A stretch of 64,000 nt of DNA, taken from assembly GCA_030428255.1 (NCBI GenBank), contig JAUIBT010000001.1:62001-126000 (forward strand). The letters are read 5' to 3'. Origin of the DNA: Alphaproteobacteria bacterium (lineage in GTDB: Bacteria; Pseudomonadota; Alphaproteobacteria; UBA7985; JAUIBT01). Both the position numbers and the translations under genes were made by a program. Under the pieces are notes generated by a model. The model saw only the letters and a program-made list of their open reading frames with translations. It was not told the DNA's origin and did not search any database. Of the stretch, positions 16,394 to 25,722 are shown in pieces (position 1 is the first letter of the stretch; each line of letters starts with the position of its first letter).

Positions 16394-17593
16394 ATGGCCC
16401 TATCCCTGTTTGATCAAAGTGTGATGGCAGCGCTAAAGCGCCTGCTGTCCCATATCTCGTATGGTCGCCTATCGGTGAGCTTCCCCGATGGCAGCCAATT
16501 TCACTATGGCAACAGCAGCAGCCCGCAGGCCACGCTGCACATTCGCTCCATGCGTGGCGTGCGGCGTATCTTGTCCAGCGGCGCCGCGATTGGGCTGGCC
16601 GAAGCCTATATGGCCGAAGAGATTGACACCCCTAATCTTTATGATCTGCTGCATCTGGGCGTCGCCAATCTGACCTTCTATGAAGAAAGCGAAAAGCGCC
16701 ACCCGCTGCGCAACTTCATCATGAAGCTCTATCACCTCATGCGCGCCAACACCAAAGCGGGCTCGCGACGCAATATTGCCGCGCACTATGACTTGGGCAA
16801 TGACTTCTATCAGCTCTGGCTTGACCCCAGCATGACCTATTCCTCGGCGCTGTTTGAGCCCAACGACAATCTGCAGACCGCCCAGCAGCGCAAATATGAG
16901 TCCATCGCACGCATGGCGGATCTGCGCCCCGATAGCCACGTGCTGGAAATCGGCTGCGGCTGGGGCGGCTTTGCCGAATATGCCGCCAAGCAGATTGGAT
17001 GTCGCGTCACGGGAATCACTATTTCGCGCGAGCAATTCGACTTTGCCTCCAAGCGCATGCAACGCCAAGGCCTGAGCGAGAAGGTGGAGCTGCGGATGCA
17101 GGACTACCGCGATGTGCCCGAGCAGTCCTTTGACCGCGCGGTCTCCATCGAAATGTTCGAGGCTGTGGGCGAGCGGTATTGGCCGACTTTCTTCGGCAAG
17201 CTGCGCGATGTCTTGACCCCTGGCGGCCGCGCTGGCCTGCAAATCATCGCCATCGAAGACCCCTACTTCAAAGAATATCAGGAATCGACCGACTTCATTC
17301 AGCAGTACATCTTTCCAGGCGGCATGCTGCCATCGCCGACGCGCTTGCGCGAAGAGATTGAGCGTGCAGGTCTCAAATGGCGGCAGGACTTTGGGCTTGC
17401 CGCCTCCTATGCCCGTACATTGCTGGATTGGAACCAGAACTTCCAGGCCGCCTGGCCCCAAGTTCAGGCTCTGCGCGCAACCTTCGATGAGCGCTTCCGA
17501 CGCATGTGGGAGTTCTATCTGATCTATTGTGCTGTTGGCTTTGAAAGCCCGCGTCTGGACGTTAAACAGATCGCGCTTGTGCGGAGCGCCTGA
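16394..17593 (+). CDS. cfa: Cyclopropane-fatty-acyl-phospholipid synthase
   Basis: A 399-residue SAM-dependent methyltransferase that adds a methylene bridge to unsaturated acyl chains of membrane phospholipids. Typical blocks are NIAAHYDLGNDFYQLWLDPSMTYSSALF before the SAM site, VLEIGCGWGGFAEYA (the SAM-binding glycine loop), GITISREQ and SIEMFEAVGERYW. The ending AVGFESPRLDVKQIAL is as expected for the family. The gene stands alone, and a perfect hairpin overlaps its stop codon. CFA synthases are usually induced in stationary phase or acid stress. Confidence in the family is high. Confidence 0.92.
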   Translation: MALSLFDQSVMAALKRLLSHISYGRLSVSFPDGSQFHYGNSSSPQATLHIRSMRGVRRILSSGAAIGLAEAYMAEEIDTPNLYDLLHLGVANLTFYEESEKRHPLRNFIMKLYHLMRANTKAGSRRNIAAHYDLGNDFYQLWLDPSMTYSSALFEPNDNLQTAQQRKYESIARMADLRPDSHVLEIGCGWGGFAEYAAKQIGCRVTGITISREQFDFASKRMQRQGLSEKVELRMQDYRDVPEQSFDRAVSIEMFEAVGERYWPTFFGKLRDVLTPGGRAGLQIIAIEDPYFKEYQESTDFIQQYIFPGGMLPSPTRLREEIERAGLKWRQDFGLAASYARTLLDWNQNFQAAWPQVQALRATFDERFRRMWEFYLIYCAVGFESPRLDVKQIALVRSA

Positions 17594-19984: not shown

Positions 19985-21769
19985 TTATAGCCAATCGTCT
20001 TCCAAGGCCAAAACGTCTTCGGCACCAGCCGAGACCGTGGCCGCCAAAGCGCCCACACGCGGCAGGACGTGCGAGACATAGAAGGCCGCCGACTTGATTT
20101 TGGACTGCAAGAAGCTGTCCGCCGCCGTCAGCGCCCCGCTGCTCAACTCGTCTTGCGCAGCCTTGGCCGATCGCAGCATGAGCCAGCCACCGGTCACATA
20201 GCCCAGCATCTTCAGATAGGGAACGCCGACTGCTGCCGCCTTGGCGGGTTCATTGGCGTAGGACAGCAGGGCCTGCAGGCCCATTTCTGCCGCTTCCACG
20301 GCCTTGCCCAAGGCTTCTGCCTGGCCCGCGTCAAAGGCGGCCAGCGGACCCTTGGCATCAGCGGCCATTTCCGCCAGCAAGCCGCTGACCCCAGCGCCCT
20401 GATCGCGCAAGGTCTTGCGGAACACCAGGTCGTTGGCCTGAATCGCGGTCGTGCCTTCGTAGATCGGCAGAATGCGCGCGTCGCGATAAAACTGCGCGGC
20501 GCCGGTCTCCTCAATGAAGCCCGTACCACCGTGAACCTGCACCCCCGCCGAGGTCACGTCGAGCGACAGCTCGGTGCTCCAAGCTTTGACGATGGGCACC
20601 AGCAATTCCAGACGGCTGTGGGCAGCGGCGCGCTCTGCCTCACTATCCGCCAAGCGCGAACGATCCATGGCCGCCGCCGCGACATAGGCCAAAGCGCGCA
20701 TGGCCTCGATCTGTGATTTCATTTCCGCCAACAGGCGCTTGACATCGGGATGGCCGATAATGGGGGTTGTCGCACTGCGACCTAAGGGCTGACCTTGCAT
20801 GCGCTCGCGGGCATAGGCCAGGGCGTGCTGGTAGGCCATCTGAGAGATGCCCAATCCCTGTACGCCGACCTCAAACCGGGCCCGGTTCATCATGATGAAC
20901 ATATAGGACAGGCCCTTGTTTTCCTCGCCGATTAGGTAGCCGACAGCGCCGTCATTCTCACCGTATTGCAGCACGCATGTTGGCGAGCCTAGGATGCCCA
21001 ACTTGTCCTCAATGGAGATACAGGTCACATCATTGCGTTCGCCGGGCTGGCCGTTTTCGTCCGGCAGAAACTTCGGCACGATGAACAAGGAAATGCCCTT
21101 GATCCCCTCGGGCGCATCGGGCGTGCGCGCCAACACCAAGTGAATGATGTTGTCGGACATCTCGTGCTCGCCATAGGTGATGAAGATCTTCTGCCCTTTG
21201 ATGCGATAGTGGTCGCCTTCGCGGATCGCCTGAGTGCGTAAGCTGGCCAGGTCTGTGCCAGCTTGCGGTTCGGTCAGGTTCATGGTGCCAGTCCAGCGCC
21301 CTTCGATCAGCGCCGGCAGATAGGTGGCCTTCTGATCATCCGACCCAACCTCTTCCAGCGCATCGATCACGCCCTGGCTCAGCAAGGGGCACAAAGCCAA
21401 GGACATGTTCGCTGCCTGCCACATTTCGCTGACAGCCGTCGCCAGAGTTCGCGGTAAGCCCTGCCCGCCATATTCGGGATCTGCGGCCAGCCCAATCCAT
21501 CCGCCTTCAGCCAGCGCATCGTGCGCCTCTTTGAATCCCTTAGGCACTTGAACGCGACCGTCGCCGATATGGCGGGCGTGCTCAAGGTGGCCGCTGTAGT
21601 TAACGGACGAAAGCGCGTCTTGACACACTTTCGCAGACTCGCTCAGAATCGAATCCACCAGGTCCTCGTCCAGCGCATCATATCCGGGACAGGCCATAAG
21701 ATCGCCGCCACCAACTAAGTGGCGCAGCGCAAAACGCATGTCATCAAGGGGGGCTTCATACAGGGGCAT
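19985..21769 (-). CDS. Acyl-CoA dehydrogenase, DmdC-like large type
   Basis: A 594-residue FAD enzyme, longer than the classic 380-residue acyl-CoA dehydrogenases and matching the length of the DmdC/FadE-like group with a C-terminal helical extension. Visible blocks are MNLTEPQAGTDLASLRTQA (flavin and substrate contacts), QKIFITYGEHEM, LGILGSPTCVLQYG, VHGGTGFIEETGAAQFYRDARILPIYEGTTAIQ and a late extension LKMLGYVTGGW. The start at 21769 (MPLYEAPLDDMRF) matches the family; the longer reading from 21955 is rejected. DmdC acts on methylmercaptopropionyl-CoA, but many paralogues act on fatty acyl-CoAs, and nothing nearby fixes the substrate. Confidence 0.85.
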   Translation of the reverse strand: MPLYEAPLDDMRFALRHLVGGGDLMACPGYDALDEDLVDSILSESAKVCQDALSSVNYSGHLEHARHIGDGRVQVPKGFKEAHDALAEGGWIGLAADPEYGGQGLPRTLATAVSEMWQAANMSLALCPLLSQGVIDALEEVGSDDQKATYLPALIEGRWTGTMNLTEPQAGTDLASLRTQAIREGDHYRIKGQKIFITYGEHEMSDNIIHLVLARTPDAPEGIKGISLFIVPKFLPDENGQPGERNDVTCISIEDKLGILGSPTCVLQYGENDGAVGYLIGEENKGLSYMFIMMNRARFEVGVQGLGISQMAYQHALAYARERMQGQPLGRSATTPIIGHPDVKRLLAEMKSQIEAMRALAYVAAAAMDRSRLADSEAERAAAHSRLELLVPIVKAWSTELSLDVTSAGVQVHGGTGFIEETGAAQFYRDARILPIYEGTTAIQANDLVFRKTLRDQGAGVSGLLAEMAADAKGPLAAFDAGQAEALGKAVEAAEMGLQALLSYANEPAKAAAVGVPYLKMLGYVTGGWLMLRSAKAAQDELSSGALTAADSFLQSKIKSAAFYVSHVLPRVGALAATVSAGAEDVLALEDDWL

Positions 21770-22177
21770 GGTGTCGTGTTTCCTATACAAGAGCCGCAGT
21801 GCAGGTCTGGCGGACGCCGGTCGGCTCGTCTTGAAATGCCTTACCTTAAGGGAAAGGTTGTCACCTATAGGTAGCGCCAGCCCAAATCCAAGTCTAGAGC
21901 ATATTCGGCCCAGCGCAGGGTCCAAAATGCCCCAGCCTGACTGTGTGCGCTCCACAAGACTCTGGCCAAGTGGGCGCTTGAGGTGGCGATGACCTCAGCC
22001 TCGCATCACGCAAAAGCTCGCCGGAAATTGAGTGCAAGTGACCCCAATCCCGGCAAAAACGCAGCCCTTAGGCAAGCAGCCATGCAAAGGGCGCATAGCT
22101 AAAACGCTAGGCTTGCAAGCGAGGCAAGAGCGAGGCATTCCCTAGCTAAATATCTCTGGAAACAGCACGCTGATATT
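21770..22177. other. 408-bp intergenic region between divergent genes, with two palindromes
   Basis: The region separates the acyl-CoA dehydrogenase and the cNMP-domain fusion gene. It holds the imperfect 19-bp palindrome CCTTACCTTAAGGGAAAGG (21839-21857) and, 5 bp further, a perfect 10-bp palindrome ACCTATAGGT (21863-21872). No small gene is convincing. The rest shows nothing that I can assign. Confidence 0.5.
21839..21872 (-). promoter_or_regulatory. Candidate operator pair for the acyl-CoA dehydrogenase gene
   Basis: The two palindromes described for this interval lie 70-100 bp upstream of the dehydrogenase start on its coding strand. An ACCTT...AAGGT dyad between promoter elements is reminiscent of MerR-family sites, which often control acyl-CoA catabolic genes. 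The -35 and -10 matches are weak, so only the dyads themselves are firm. Confidence 0.3.
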
Positions 22178-24790
22178 ATGACATTTCAGAGCCCTAAGCA
22201 GGCCGTCGATGCCCTGATTGACCTTGTGGACGCAAACCGCCCAGGTGGCCTAGATGCGCTCGACTTGACCGAGGCGCGTGTGCTGCTGGCTCGCAGTGCT
22301 AGTTTGCGTTCGTTCAAGGCTGGCGAAACTCTGGTCGAAAACTTTGCGACCGGTGCCTGGCTCTATTTGTTGCTCGATGGCAGCATCACTTTTTGGAGCA
22401 ATGGTCGCGCGGAACGTGAATTGATCACAACCGACGTGCTGTGGACGCCCTTTGGTTGGTCGGCATTGCGTTCGCCGTCGCGTTACTTCAGCCATGTGAC
22501 CAGCGAAAGCCAAGGCCAATATCTCGCCCTGTCCATAGAGGACATACAGCAAATTTCGACCAACCAACCGGAAGCCGCAATTGCTCTGGTCTCATGGTGG
22601 TTTGCCCGCGCCATGCCCTTGACCGAGAAAAATCGGCTGGATCCGGACCAGGATCAAAGCGCGCCTGATGTTCGTGCATTCGCTCATGCCGCGCCGCAAG
22701 ATACCGATATACCGACAATTTGTGACGTTCTGGAGCGCTCGCCAGTCCTTGGTGGCATGGGGCGCGAGACTCTGGAGACTCTGGCGCGCACCGGCAGCGC
22801 CATTCAACTCCAGACGGGCGATTATCTGACCCGCCAAGGCTGCAAGAGCCCCGGCTTGGCGATCATGATTTGGGGTCAGTTCAGTCTCTACTACCGCCCG
22901 AGCGATGCGCCTGAGCAAATCCGTGAGCGGTCGGCAACTCGTCCCGGATCGGTCGTAGCCTGGGGCGGGCTTGAGGGCCAGGACATCAAGGCGATTTACG
23001 ACGTGCAGGCCTCGCGCGATTGTTTGGTCCTGCTGCTAGAGCCGCAGCATTGGAGCGCTCTGGTTGCGAGCCATCCTTATTTGGTCGAAACGCTCTATCA
23101 CAAGCAATTCTGGCTGCTGGGTCGCAGCTTGCGTTCGGCGCGTGCCCTCAAGCAAGTCGATAATTCGCGCTCGGGCATTGAGATCTTGCGCGCCCTTATC
23201 GACGACAACCGCCTCAACCTTCCGCCCTCCTCTTCGCTGTTTGCGATTGAGATTATGTTAAATCACACCGCAACGCGCCCGGTGGCGTTTGACTTGCTCA
23301 ATCGCCTGCCCGATAGCGGCTCAGAGCTTGAGAAGGGCATTGCGGCAGTGGCCTTGGACACGCTGCGGAATTTAGAGCTTGAAACCAGCCTTGCCTCCGC
23401 CTTGGCACTGTGCTGCCCGGATCCGAGCCGGGTCAAATCGCCCAGCCTTGCGCGTCGAACCCGCCACGCGCGTGCCATGGAAGAAGCCCTGAACTTCAGC
23501 GGCTTTCAAATCTCTGGCTTGGATCGCCTGCCAAGCACGGCAAATTGCATCTTCATCTATAACAGCCTGCCGGGCGGTGAAATCAGCCACCTGGCCAACG
23601 GCCAACAGCTTGATCTTTGCGCCGAGTTCATCTCAGCTAAGATCGCCTACCCACAGTATGGCCGACCAGTGGCTTGGATCACACATCCCACTGAGAGCTC
23701 CGCCAGCGCGACCATTCTGGGCGCGATCGCCCCGCCCAACTCTGCGCCAAAGAGCGGCTCGGCCTTCCTCGAAGAAACCCAAGCGGCGCTTGACCATGGG
23801 TGTCCCTTGCTGATCGCGCCCGAGGGCGAAGACGATGGCGACTGGCGTGACCAAAGCACGGCCACCTCGCCCGGCCCATTGCGACCAGGCGCGCTGGTCT
23901 TGGCGCAATCGCTCACGAGCAAGCCCCTGATTGTCCCCGTGGCACTCGCCAACTTTGAATGCGATCCTGCTGATGCCGTCTTGTCGGCTGTCGTGCAAGA
24001 ACCTTTGGACCCGCAAAGCCTTCCTGACTTGGCGGACCGCGCTGCGGTCAAGACCTACTTGTCCGCGCTTCGCAAGCAGTTCAAGGGCTGGGTGGCTGAG
24101 GCGCGCGATCAAGCCTCGGCGCCGCCGCCCGTTGGAGCTGCCCATGTTTGGACCAATCGCCGCTCGGTCGGCTCGCTTGAACGCGAATTCCAGGCCGATG
24201 TCCTGCAGGCCGAGCAGAGCTTTCATGCAAGCCGCGAGCCACAGGGCGAAATCATGCTGTATGGCTCCTCTAGCTTGCGGTATTGGCAAACTGCTGAGGC
24301 CGACTTGGGTCACGCCCCCTTGTTCAATCTGGCCTTTGGCGGATCGACCCTGCCAGCCTGTTACCACTATTTTGATCGCCTCGTGAGCCCTTTGGCCCCG
24401 CGCGGCATGATCTTTTATTGCGGGGACAACGACCTCAGCCGTCACAGCGACCCGGAGCGCGTGTTACGCCACTTCCAGCGCTACGCCGACCGCCAGGCCG
24501 AACGCCTGCCCTACTGCCGAAGCCTTATGGTATCGATCAAACCCAGCCCCTTGCGCTTTGGTTTGATGGAGCAAGTGAAAGCGGCCAATCTGGCGCTGGA
24601 GCAAGAACTGGCCGAACGTCCCACCTGGCGCTTTGTGACCATCTTTGATGCCATGCTGAATGAGCAAGGCAAGCCCAGGCCCGAACTCTACTCTGAGGAC
24701 CGTTTGCACCTCTCGCCCGCGGGTTACGCGCTCTGGGCTCAAGCCTTGCGCCCGCATTTGGCTTGGCTAAACGGCTCCGACGTTTCCTAA
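22178..24790 (+). CDS. Large multidomain protein: two cNMP-binding-like domains, acyltransferase-like segment, SGNH hydrolase
   Basis: An 870-residue protein. Residues about 32-140 and 183-315 each look like a cyclic-nucleotide-binding beta-roll (FKAGETLVENFATGAWLYLLLDGSI; LQTGDYLTRQGCKSPGLAIMIWGQF). Residues about 430-640 resemble a PlsC-like acyltransferase, with IAPEG at 547-550 and a later LIVPVAL strand, but a clear HxxxxD motif is missing. Residues about 690-862 form an SGNH/GDSL esterase domain with GSSS (696-699), GGS (721-723), GDND (749-752) and DRLH (841-844), giving Ser, Gly, Asn and Asp-His. No signal peptide is seen. The architecture suggests a ligand-gated lipid-modifying enzyme; the substrate is unknown. 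It stands alone. Confidence 0.75.
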   Translation: MTFQSPKQAVDALIDLVDANRPGGLDALDLTEARVLLARSASLRSFKAGETLVENFATGAWLYLLLDGSITFWSNGRAERELITTDVLWTPFGWSALRSPSRYFSHVTSESQGQYLALSIEDIQQISTNQPEAAIALVSWWFARAMPLTEKNRLDPDQDQSAPDVRAFAHAAPQDTDIPTICDVLERSPVLGGMGRETLETLARTGSAIQLQTGDYLTRQGCKSPGLAIMIWGQFSLYYRPSDAPEQIRERSATRPGSVVAWGGLEGQDIKAIYDVQASRDCLVLLLEPQHWSALVASHPYLVETLYHKQFWLLGRSLRSARALKQVDNSRSGIEILRALIDDNRLNLPPSSSLFAIEIMLNHTATRPVAFDLLNRLPDSGSELEKGIAAVALDTLRNLELETSLASALALCCPDPSRVKSPSLARRTRHARAMEEALNFSGFQISGLDRLPSTANCIFIYNSLPGGEISHLANGQQLDLCAEFISAKIAYPQYGRPVAWITHPTESSASATILGAIAPPNSAPKSGSAFLEETQAALDHGCPLLIAPEGEDDGDWRDQSTATSPGPLRPGALVLAQSLTSKPLIVPVALANFECDPADAVLSAVVQEPLDPQSLPDLADRAAVKTYLSALRKQFKGWVAEARDQASAPPPVGAAHVWTNRRSVGSLEREFQADVLQAEQSFHASREPQGEIMLYGSSSLRYWQTAEADLGHAPLFNLAFGGSTLPACYHYFDRLVSPLAPRGMIFYCGDNDLSRHSDPERVLRHFQRYADRQAERLPYCRSLMVSIKPSPLRFGLMEQVKAANLALEQELAERPTWRFVTIFDAMLNEQGKPRPELYSEDRLHLSPAGYALWAQALRPHLAWLNGSDVS

Positions 24791-24816: not shown

Positions 24817-25722
24817 TCAGGCGGACAAGTCCAAGCGATAGAAGCGCGCGGCAGTGTCAGCGAACACGGCCTGGCGCGCCTCCGGTGGCACCAGCTCGAA
24901 CAGCGTGGTAAACAGGCGGTGATAGTCGGAATAGAGGCTATCGACCGGGAAGTTTGAACCAAACATGCATCGCGCAGGACCGAACAGCTCCAGGCAGGTC
25001 TCGACCAATGGCGCAAAACTTTGGCGGGTCCAAGCGTGATCAAACATGCCCAACCCCGAAAGCTTGACGCTGACCTGAGGCAGCGCCGCCAGCTTGGCTA
25101 GCTCTTGGCGCCAAACGGCCAGACCTTCGGTGCTGCGATCCTGGGGTGAGCCGGCATGACACAGCGCAACCGGCGTGTCAGGCGCTTGCGCAAAGACTTT
25201 GGCCGCCTTACCCATCAGCTCAGGAGTGAGCTGTAGGTCGAAAGACAAGCCGCGCTGACCCAAAGCCTGCAAACCAGCTACGAAACTGGGCTGATCCAGC
25301 AGGGCTTGGGTACCGCTCTTGGCATCCTCCTGAGTAGCACGCCCCACGATCTGACGCAGGCCACGCAAACTTGACAGGGCGCAGAGCCGGTCGAGTTCAT
25401 CGCTCAAGTCTGCGCGGGTCAGGTCACAAAAGGCAACCTGTACCAACGGCCAATCCGGGTTGGCCTGGCTGACGCCCTCGACCCAGCGGGCCTCCTGTAG
25501 TGCGTCGGCTGCACCCACTTGTATGTGGACCGATGCCCGCATGCCCTGAGCGGCCGCGTCGGCGCGAAACTCGGGCAGCAAATAATCCCTTTGGATCGGC
25601 GTCGGATCACCAAAGAACCGCGCGACACCGCGCTCCGCTAGCCAGGGATAGTGAACCGCCGCCAGATCCCACAGGTGATGATGCGCGTCGATCATAGGCA
25701 AGCTCACCAGTCTTGACTCCAT
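24817..25722 (-). CDS. Amidohydrolase-2 family lactonase-type hydrolase (COG3618)
   Basis: A 301-residue TIM-barrel metal hydrolase. It has the opening motif MIDAHHHLWD (His-x-His), the strand end ALCHAGSP, and SGLGMF and MFGSNFPVDSLYSDY with the conserved aspartate. COG3618 includes L-fuconolactonase, sulfomuconolactonase and pyrone dicarboxylate lactonase, so opening of a sugar-acid lactone is a reasonable guess. It is the second gene of a - strand pair, overlapping the SnoaL-like gene by 19 nt. The pair is divergent from the sugar ABC operon across the LacI-type operators. If the internal ATG at 25695 is used, the overlap disappears. Confidence 0.78.
   Translation of the reverse strand: MESRLVSLPMIDAHHHLWDLAAVHYPWLAERGVARFFGDPTPIQRDYLLPEFRADAAAQGMRASVHIQVGAADALQEARWVEGVSQANPDWPLVQVAFCDLTRADLSDELDRLCALSSLRGLRQIVGRATQEDAKSGTQALLDQPSFVAGLQALGQRGLSFDLQLTPELMGKAAKVFAQAPDTPVALCHAGSPQDRSTEGLAVWRQELAKLAALPQVSVKLSGLGMFDHAWTRQSFAPLVETCLELFGPARCMFGSNFPVDSLYSDYHRLFTTLFELVPPEARQAVFADTAARFYRLDLSA

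Follow-up and report, generated by a model that had tools for sequence, protein, structure and literature searches.

The window, a stretch of 64,000 nucleotides of an alphaproteobacterial genome, contains on its forward strand an open reading frame that starts with ATG and encodes a protein of 870 amino acids (Table 1). The genes on both sides are encoded on the opposite strand and there is no obvious operon for this gene. Two other species of the genus have full-length orthologues (71% and 69% identity), which takes the reading frame beyond chance: judged by this conservation, it is a genuine gene product.

Table 1. Positions of the features in the window and in related loci (L numbers); the family gene is the 870-amino-acid gene or its relative
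Feature	Locus	Position	Strand	Basis or remark
Gene for the 870-amino-acid protein	window	22178-24790	+	ORF reading
CNB-like domain 1	window	22259-22552 (aa 28-125)	+	Pfam cNMP_binding; beta-roll in model; Foldseek PKA/PKG; residue counts
CNB-like domain 2	window	22733-23086 (aa 186-303)	+	Pfam best stretch 210-299; model; 3gyd_B alignment
Helical stretch	window	23087-23467 (aa 304-430)	+	secondary structure of model
PlsC/LPLAT-like acyltransferase domain	window	23468-24097 (aa 431-640)	+	Pfam, family alignment, residue counts
SGNH (GDSL-type) esterase domain	window	24179-24775 (aa 668-866)	+	Pfam, VIA-align, residue counts
Acyl-CoA dehydrogenase	window	19985-21955	-	Pfam-checked; neighbour of the 870-amino-acid gene
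Acyl-CoA dehydrogenase	L002	1-667		near family gene
Acyl-CoA dehydrogenase	L061	4051-5847		Pfam-checked; near family gene
Acyl-CoA dehydrogenase	L003, L074			near family gene
Amidohydrolase-like ORF	window	24817-25722	opposite	named by eye; neighbour of the 870-amino-acid gene
Cyclopropane fatty acid synthase-like gene	window	16394-17593		CMAS, 273 bits
Photolyase-related gene (DPRP)	L012	15170-16651		PF04244 checked
Photolyase-related gene (DPRP)	L089	12037-13533		PF04244 checked
Photolyase-related gene (DPRP)	L076-L083, L091-L093, L096, L098, L102, L103			PF04244 checked in L078
Second photolyase gene, FAD-type	L078	8501-9631		adjoins family gene
Zn_peptidase_2 gene	L102	5122-5826		PF04298 checked
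Zn_peptidase_2 gene	L012, L084, L087, L095, L096, L101, L103
Flavin-reductase-like gene	L020	6463-7071		PF01613
Family gene with interrupted frame	L042	6001-8617
Family gene with interrupted frame	L112	8729-10765

Pfam scans of the window protein identified cNMP_binding in two stretches (36.3 bits, cut-off 27.5) and Lipase_GDSL_2 over residues 702-852 (43.6 bits, cut-off 32.9); Acyltransferase PF01553 matched residues 525-590 with 15.1 bits, under its cut-off of 23. An AlphaFold2 model, for which a family alignment of 40 rows was used, has a mean pLDDT of 83.2 and a pTM of 0.66; its two beta-rolls are followed by a helical stretch, then an alpha/beta domain and, last, an SGNH domain. Foldseek matched the tandem beta-rolls to the tandem-CNB regulatory domains of PKA/PKG (E about 1e-12), and VIA-align aligned the second CNB domain (model residues 166-334) to 3gyd_B (Z 16.9, 161 residues aligned, rmsd 4.2). 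The helical stretch ends approximately where the PlsC-aligning part starts in the model of a relative, L096 (residues 381-655, aligned with 5kym). The first-pass annotation had read the protein as two cNMP-like domains fused to an acyltransferase-like segment and an SGNH esterase and had proposed structure prediction and a domain search, both of which support this reading: the cNMP-like domains are confirmed as CNB-type folds by Pfam, AlphaFold2 and Foldseek, and the acyltransferase-like segment is probably a PlsC-like domain of about residues 431-640.

This CNB-CNB-acyltransferase-SGNH architecture was regarded as uncommon at first; in the genomes sampled it is indeed sparse, but it is not unique, and it is conserved in the window genus. 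Among 96 related genomes there were six matches, of which only the three genus members (the window itself and the two orthologues) were full-length; the other three were to SGNH or CNB alone. A scan of a genome collection with a single peptide pattern, which misses members that lack this peptide, returned 170 related stretches. The best 80 of these 170 include Marinomonas, Maribrevibacterium, Dadabacteria, Cytophagales, Marinoscillum, Vicinamibacteria, Thiodiazotropha, Chromatiaceae, Pelagibacteraceae (SAR11), Rhodobacteraceae and other Alphaproteobacteria. Together with the window and nine loci found earlier, they make up the 90 loci analysed here; two pairs of loci have identical proteins (L013 and L094, L020 and L039), and L022 and L023 are placed only as another class of the phylum. 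The family is present in 4 of 289 genomes of the window's class and in 5 of 398 of its phylum and, with the acyltransferase domain alone as query, in 2 of 48 genomes of the class of G307, 4 of 369 of the class of G420 and 1 of 395 of the phylum of G671 (all tallies include the window's or the respective centre genome). In Persicobacter sp. JZB09, identified by tblastn in plasmid records, the chain is split into two genes: a gene for a 655-amino-acid CNB-CNB-acyltransferase protein is followed one base later by a gene for a 209-amino-acid SGNH protein. A search of phage records returned no match, and a PHROGs search only a single weak one, within the SGNH part. The survey across genomes that had been suggested with the first reading of the sequence has thus revealed a scattered family, and a literature search of partial coverage found no paper on this sensor-acyltransferase-esterase fusion.

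The SGNH domain is fused to the family protein in 69 of the 90 loci and is encoded by the next gene on the same strand in eight, with gaps of -28 to +17 bases; one further locus, L042, has a fused gene with a broken frame. All of the 12 loci without SGNH have a gene for an AXE1-type alpha/beta-hydrolase; the 78 loci with SGNH have no such gene. Four of these 12 loci were the source of the AXE1 profile and are therefore not independent of it. A later sample contained three further members without SGNH: AXE1 is present in both loci that could be tested (L112 and L113), and L111 ends at a contig edge. The AXE1 genes are mostly located beside the family gene on the opposite strand, although 'adjacent' would be too strong for every one of them: in L023 a PhoD-like gene lies between the two. 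In an alignment of 11 of the 12 AXE1 proteins (L094 was omitted as a duplicate), Ser, Asp and His are invariant at the places expected from the fold. As predicted from these sequences, a serine esterase accompanies every member whose flanks could be read, either as fused SGNH domain, as SGNH protein of the next gene or as AXE1. In a tree built from 46 of the 90 rows, two changes suffice for the AXE1 label and three for all three partner states, so that the 12-versus-78 split corresponds to few events kept over a long time rather than to 90 independent observations. The window genus is on a long branch of the tree (2.61) and its placement is unsure. The interrupted frames in the family genes of L042 and L112 are either sequencing errors or recent breaks.

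Several other genes recur near the family gene. A photolyase-related gene (DPRP, PF04244) is found in 17 of the 90 loci, all from the alphaproteobacterial clade, and in the SAR11 locus L078 a second photolyase gene adjoins the family gene. Eight alphaproteobacterial loci have a Zn_peptidase_2 gene, which is directly upstream of the family gene in the three that were read (L012, L084, L102). In the Marinomonas locus L020, a flavin-reductase-like gene is located 26 bases upstream. In the window genus (window, L002, L003) and in two Cytophagales loci (L061, L074), the family gene has an acyl-CoA dehydrogenase gene nearby, which may be chance, such genes being common. The cyclopropane fatty acid synthase-like gene of the window lies about 4.6 kb from the 870-amino-acid gene.

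The SGNH domain of the window protein has the motifs GSSS (696-699), GGS (721-723), GDND (749-752) and DRLH (841-844), with S698, G722, N751, D841 and H844 as catalytic residues. Across the 78 SGNH-bearing members, G696, D841 and H844 are each kept in all, N751 in 77, S698 in 76 (the other two have Thr) and G722 in 74. VIA-align aligned window residues 666-867 to sialate O-acetylesterase (7pzg_BBB; Z 25.4, rmsd 2.0, 190 residues) and residues 666-865 to PAF acetylhydrolase Ib (1wab; Z 22.2, rmsd 2.5, 194 residues). The initial description of the SGNH residues as intact holds: all four catalytic blocks are present, Lipase_GDSL_2 is over its cut-off and the SGNH fold is matched.

The acyltransferase domain differs from known enzymes in the whole family and has diverged further in the window genus. 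Glycerolipid acyltransferases are defined by the motif H-X4-D, with a spacing of four (available part of PMC10593935). In the family domain (ACYLTRANSFERASE), block I has N-H, followed after exactly 17 residues by an Asp, in 87 of 90 members: N and the 17-residue spacing are kept in all 90, H and D in 87 each. Also conserved are R500 (87/90), R503 (86/90), PEG (90/90) and P587 of the VP block (89/90). H, D and R500 are missing only from the three members of the window genus, which all have Ser463, Cys481, Glu483 and Trp500 (H463S, D481C, R500W); position 503 is His in the window alone (R503H) and still Arg in L002 and L003. The window protein keeps N462 and P548-E549-G550. The first-pass annotation was correct in that the window lacks a clear HxxxxD, the family His being replaced by Ser463 and the family Asp by Cys481, but this is a loss in the window genus, while nearly all relatives keep both residues as H-X17-D, a motif that a plain HxxxxD search misses because of its spacing.

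In the L096 model, a strand precedes the NH, and the helix that comes next carries the Asp in its first turn; residues 381-655 align to PlsC 5kym with a Z of 18.0 (223 of 241 residues, rmsd 4.1). We infer that the Asp at X17 is the displaced catalytic Asp. PF01553 matches 16 of 16 relatives at E<=1. PlsC appears among the VIA-align matches for the L096 model and is absent from the 50 best matches listed for the window model, as matches to the SGNH domain filled that list. The acyltransferase is often the best-conserved domain across the family, but not so for the window: identities to L096 are 69% for the acyltransferase and 55% for the SGNH domain in SAR11, 43% and 32% in Marinomonas, and level in the window (37% and 36%), and between the window and the Dadabacteria member L059 the acyltransferase (25%) is less conserved than the SGNH domain (34%). 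Since the window genus alone has H replaced by S, D replaced by C and Arg500 lost, its domain looks like a pseudo-acyltransferase. The earlier suggestion that only the esterase is active is hence well supported for the window genus, as a prediction from residues that 86-87 of the 90 members keep. Within the genus, the dN/dS of the acyltransferase domain is 0.06-0.16, which indicates purifying selection on the apparently dead domain, although this is poorly measured, as dS (1.7-1.9) is near saturation.

On balance, we consider it somewhat probable that the family is a ligand-gated deacylation/reacylation unit, which in the window genus has been reduced to a gated SGNH esterase with an acyltransferase scaffold. 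The family core, CNB-CNB-LPLAT, is paired with a serine esterase in the loci examined, and in the common form both enzymes would share one kind of acyl ester: the esterase would take an acyl group off and the PlsC-type domain with its displaced H-X17-D dyad would add one. Gating would be the task of the two CNB domains, whose ligand is probably neither cAMP nor cGMP. In the window genus, the acyltransferase, having lost H, D and one arginine, would be retained in folded form as a scaffold that probably helps docking to the membrane or the substrate, and the protein would be a ligand-gated SGNH esterase of which the hydrolytic half alone remains. Domain content, motif states, esterase partnership and the divergence of the window-genus acyltransferase are taken from sequence; substrate, gating and reaction direction are what we infer.

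The 'lipid editing' proposed at first sight would fit such a unit. The resemblance of SGNH and AXE1 to short-chain or acetyl esterases does not by itself point to phospholipids, and the acetyl-esterase flavour of both partner types makes a carbohydrate or metabolite substrate possible. The protein could then be an editor of short-acyl (acetyl) esters on a carbohydrate or metabolite, with an acyltransferase-like domain that merely binds an acyl carrier or the membrane. The two closest SGNH folds, sialate O-acetylesterase and PAF acetylhydrolase, are consistent with this, as is the alternative partner AXE1, an acetyl xylan esterase family. However, the PlsC fold agrees with glycerolipid acylation, as does the NH/D/R/PEG set that 86-90 of the 90 members keep, and no sugar-binding domain was found in the Pfam scans; we regard an acetyl ester editor as rather unlikely.

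The Glu of the phosphate-binding cassette is the canonical cNMP contact in CNB domains. In CNB1 this cassette is replaced by the motif P-[IVLF]-G-[WIV]-S-x-[FL]-x-x-P-x-R-[YFH]: all 88 members with this stretch (the remaining two of the 90 lack it) have W, I or V at the position of the Glu (W94 in the window), and all 88 keep Arg102. Neither of two cyclase families, PF00211 and PF01295, matched in the window's genome, which is 99.24% complete. PF00211 is present in 8 of 17 carrier genomes and absent from nine, including the window's; G002, of the same genus as the window, has one match. PF01295 is absent from all 10 carrier genomes tested. Because the CNB1 Glu is replaced in 88 of 88 members and neither tested cyclase family is found in the window's genome, cAMP or cGMP appears unlikely as ligand of the window protein, and so does the cAMP-type signal considered in the first-pass annotation. 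The best NCBIfam match of the CNB region is family 2B encapsulin, whose CNB domains are reported not to bind cyclic nucleotides (available part of PMC12407261). Membership in this family is not supported: the match is confined to residues 175-307 and has 24.2 bits against a cut-off of 400.

These data bear on a further explanation, a cAMP- or cGMP-regulated phospholipase as bacterial analogue of PNPLA6/NTE. CNB sites combined with a lipase are the layout of NTE (available part of PMC9025805), the CNB1 arginine is kept throughout and class III cyclases are present in almost half of the host genomes, but the replacement of the canonical Glu, the distribution of both cyclase families and the reported non-binding of the encapsulin CNB domains all argue against it, and we consider it improbable. 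Membership in NTE itself was rejected, as the Pfam scan of the window protein gave no patatin match.

Two further explanations have very little probability. A phage-defence effector of the Pycsar/CBASS sort, in which a cyclic nucleotide unleashes a membrane-damaging lipase, is suggested by weak PADLOC PycTIR/TIR matches (14.8 bits in the window protein, up to 37.6 bits in L024), but these fall in the CNB regions, no TIR domain was found by Pfam in the window protein or in eight relatives, the window's genome has no PF00211 cyclase and the neighbourhoods are conserved in SAR11. That the gene is decaying in the window genus and has no present function would agree with the lost acyltransferase residues and the long branch, but is hardly compatible with the full-length open frame in all three species found, the intact SGNH catalytic residues and a dN well below dS in all domains.

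More tentatively, the ligand-gated deacylation/reacylation unit can be read as a bacterial Lands-cycle machine under sensor control, in which the H-X17-D dyad is displaced; it would be present in marine bacteria down to SAR11 and, in the window genus, converted to a gated esterase whose scaffold is a pseudo-acyltransferase. In the boldest variant, acyl chains that are oxidised or shortened would be repaired in the manner of PAF acetylhydrolase. Photolyase genes nearby in SAR11 and other Alphaproteobacteria would fit a repair of acyl chains oxidised and shortened by light damage, but their proximity may be inherited synteny.

The family is a concrete candidate for bacterial acyl turnover, in which an LPLAT and a serine esterase are kept together across several phyla; the type of esterase has been swapped but, in the loci examined, never lost. 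With intact and dead acyltransferases in one frame, it lends itself to a natural comparison of the two; also of note are its unusual H-X17-D motif and its CNB domains, for which cAMP is probably not the ligand. With family 2B encapsulins, the window protein shares the fold of the CNB insertion domain (available part of PMC12407261), but it has no HK97 shell domain and scores far below the family cut-off. The SGNH part has the four catalytic blocks and the fold of SGNH/GDSL hydrolases such as 7pzg and 1wab and, unlike these, is the C-terminus of a sensor-acyltransferase chain or the product of the next gene. The acyltransferase shares with PlsC/LPLAT (PF01553; 5kym) the fold, as seen in L096, the NH, PEG and VP blocks and the conserved arginines; it differs by the H-to-D spacing of 17 instead of 4, by its position behind two CNB domains and, in the window genus, by the absence of H, D and Arg500. 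PNPLA6/NTE likewise has CNB-type domains on a serine (lyso)phospholipase (available part of PMC9025805), but NTE has a patatin domain, whereas the family uses SGNH or AXE1 together with a PlsC-type domain and lacks the canonical cNMP Glu. In the available part of PMC9132575, a bacterial pathway for rapid phospholipid acyl-chain turnover is described as unknown, and so is the acyltransferase partner that follows PlaF of Pseudomonas aeruginosa. The deacylation and subsequent reacylation of glycerophospholipids proposed there for PlaF resembles the reaction sequence that we suggest for the family; in contrast to PlaF, the family links acyltransferase and esterase in one chain or one locus.
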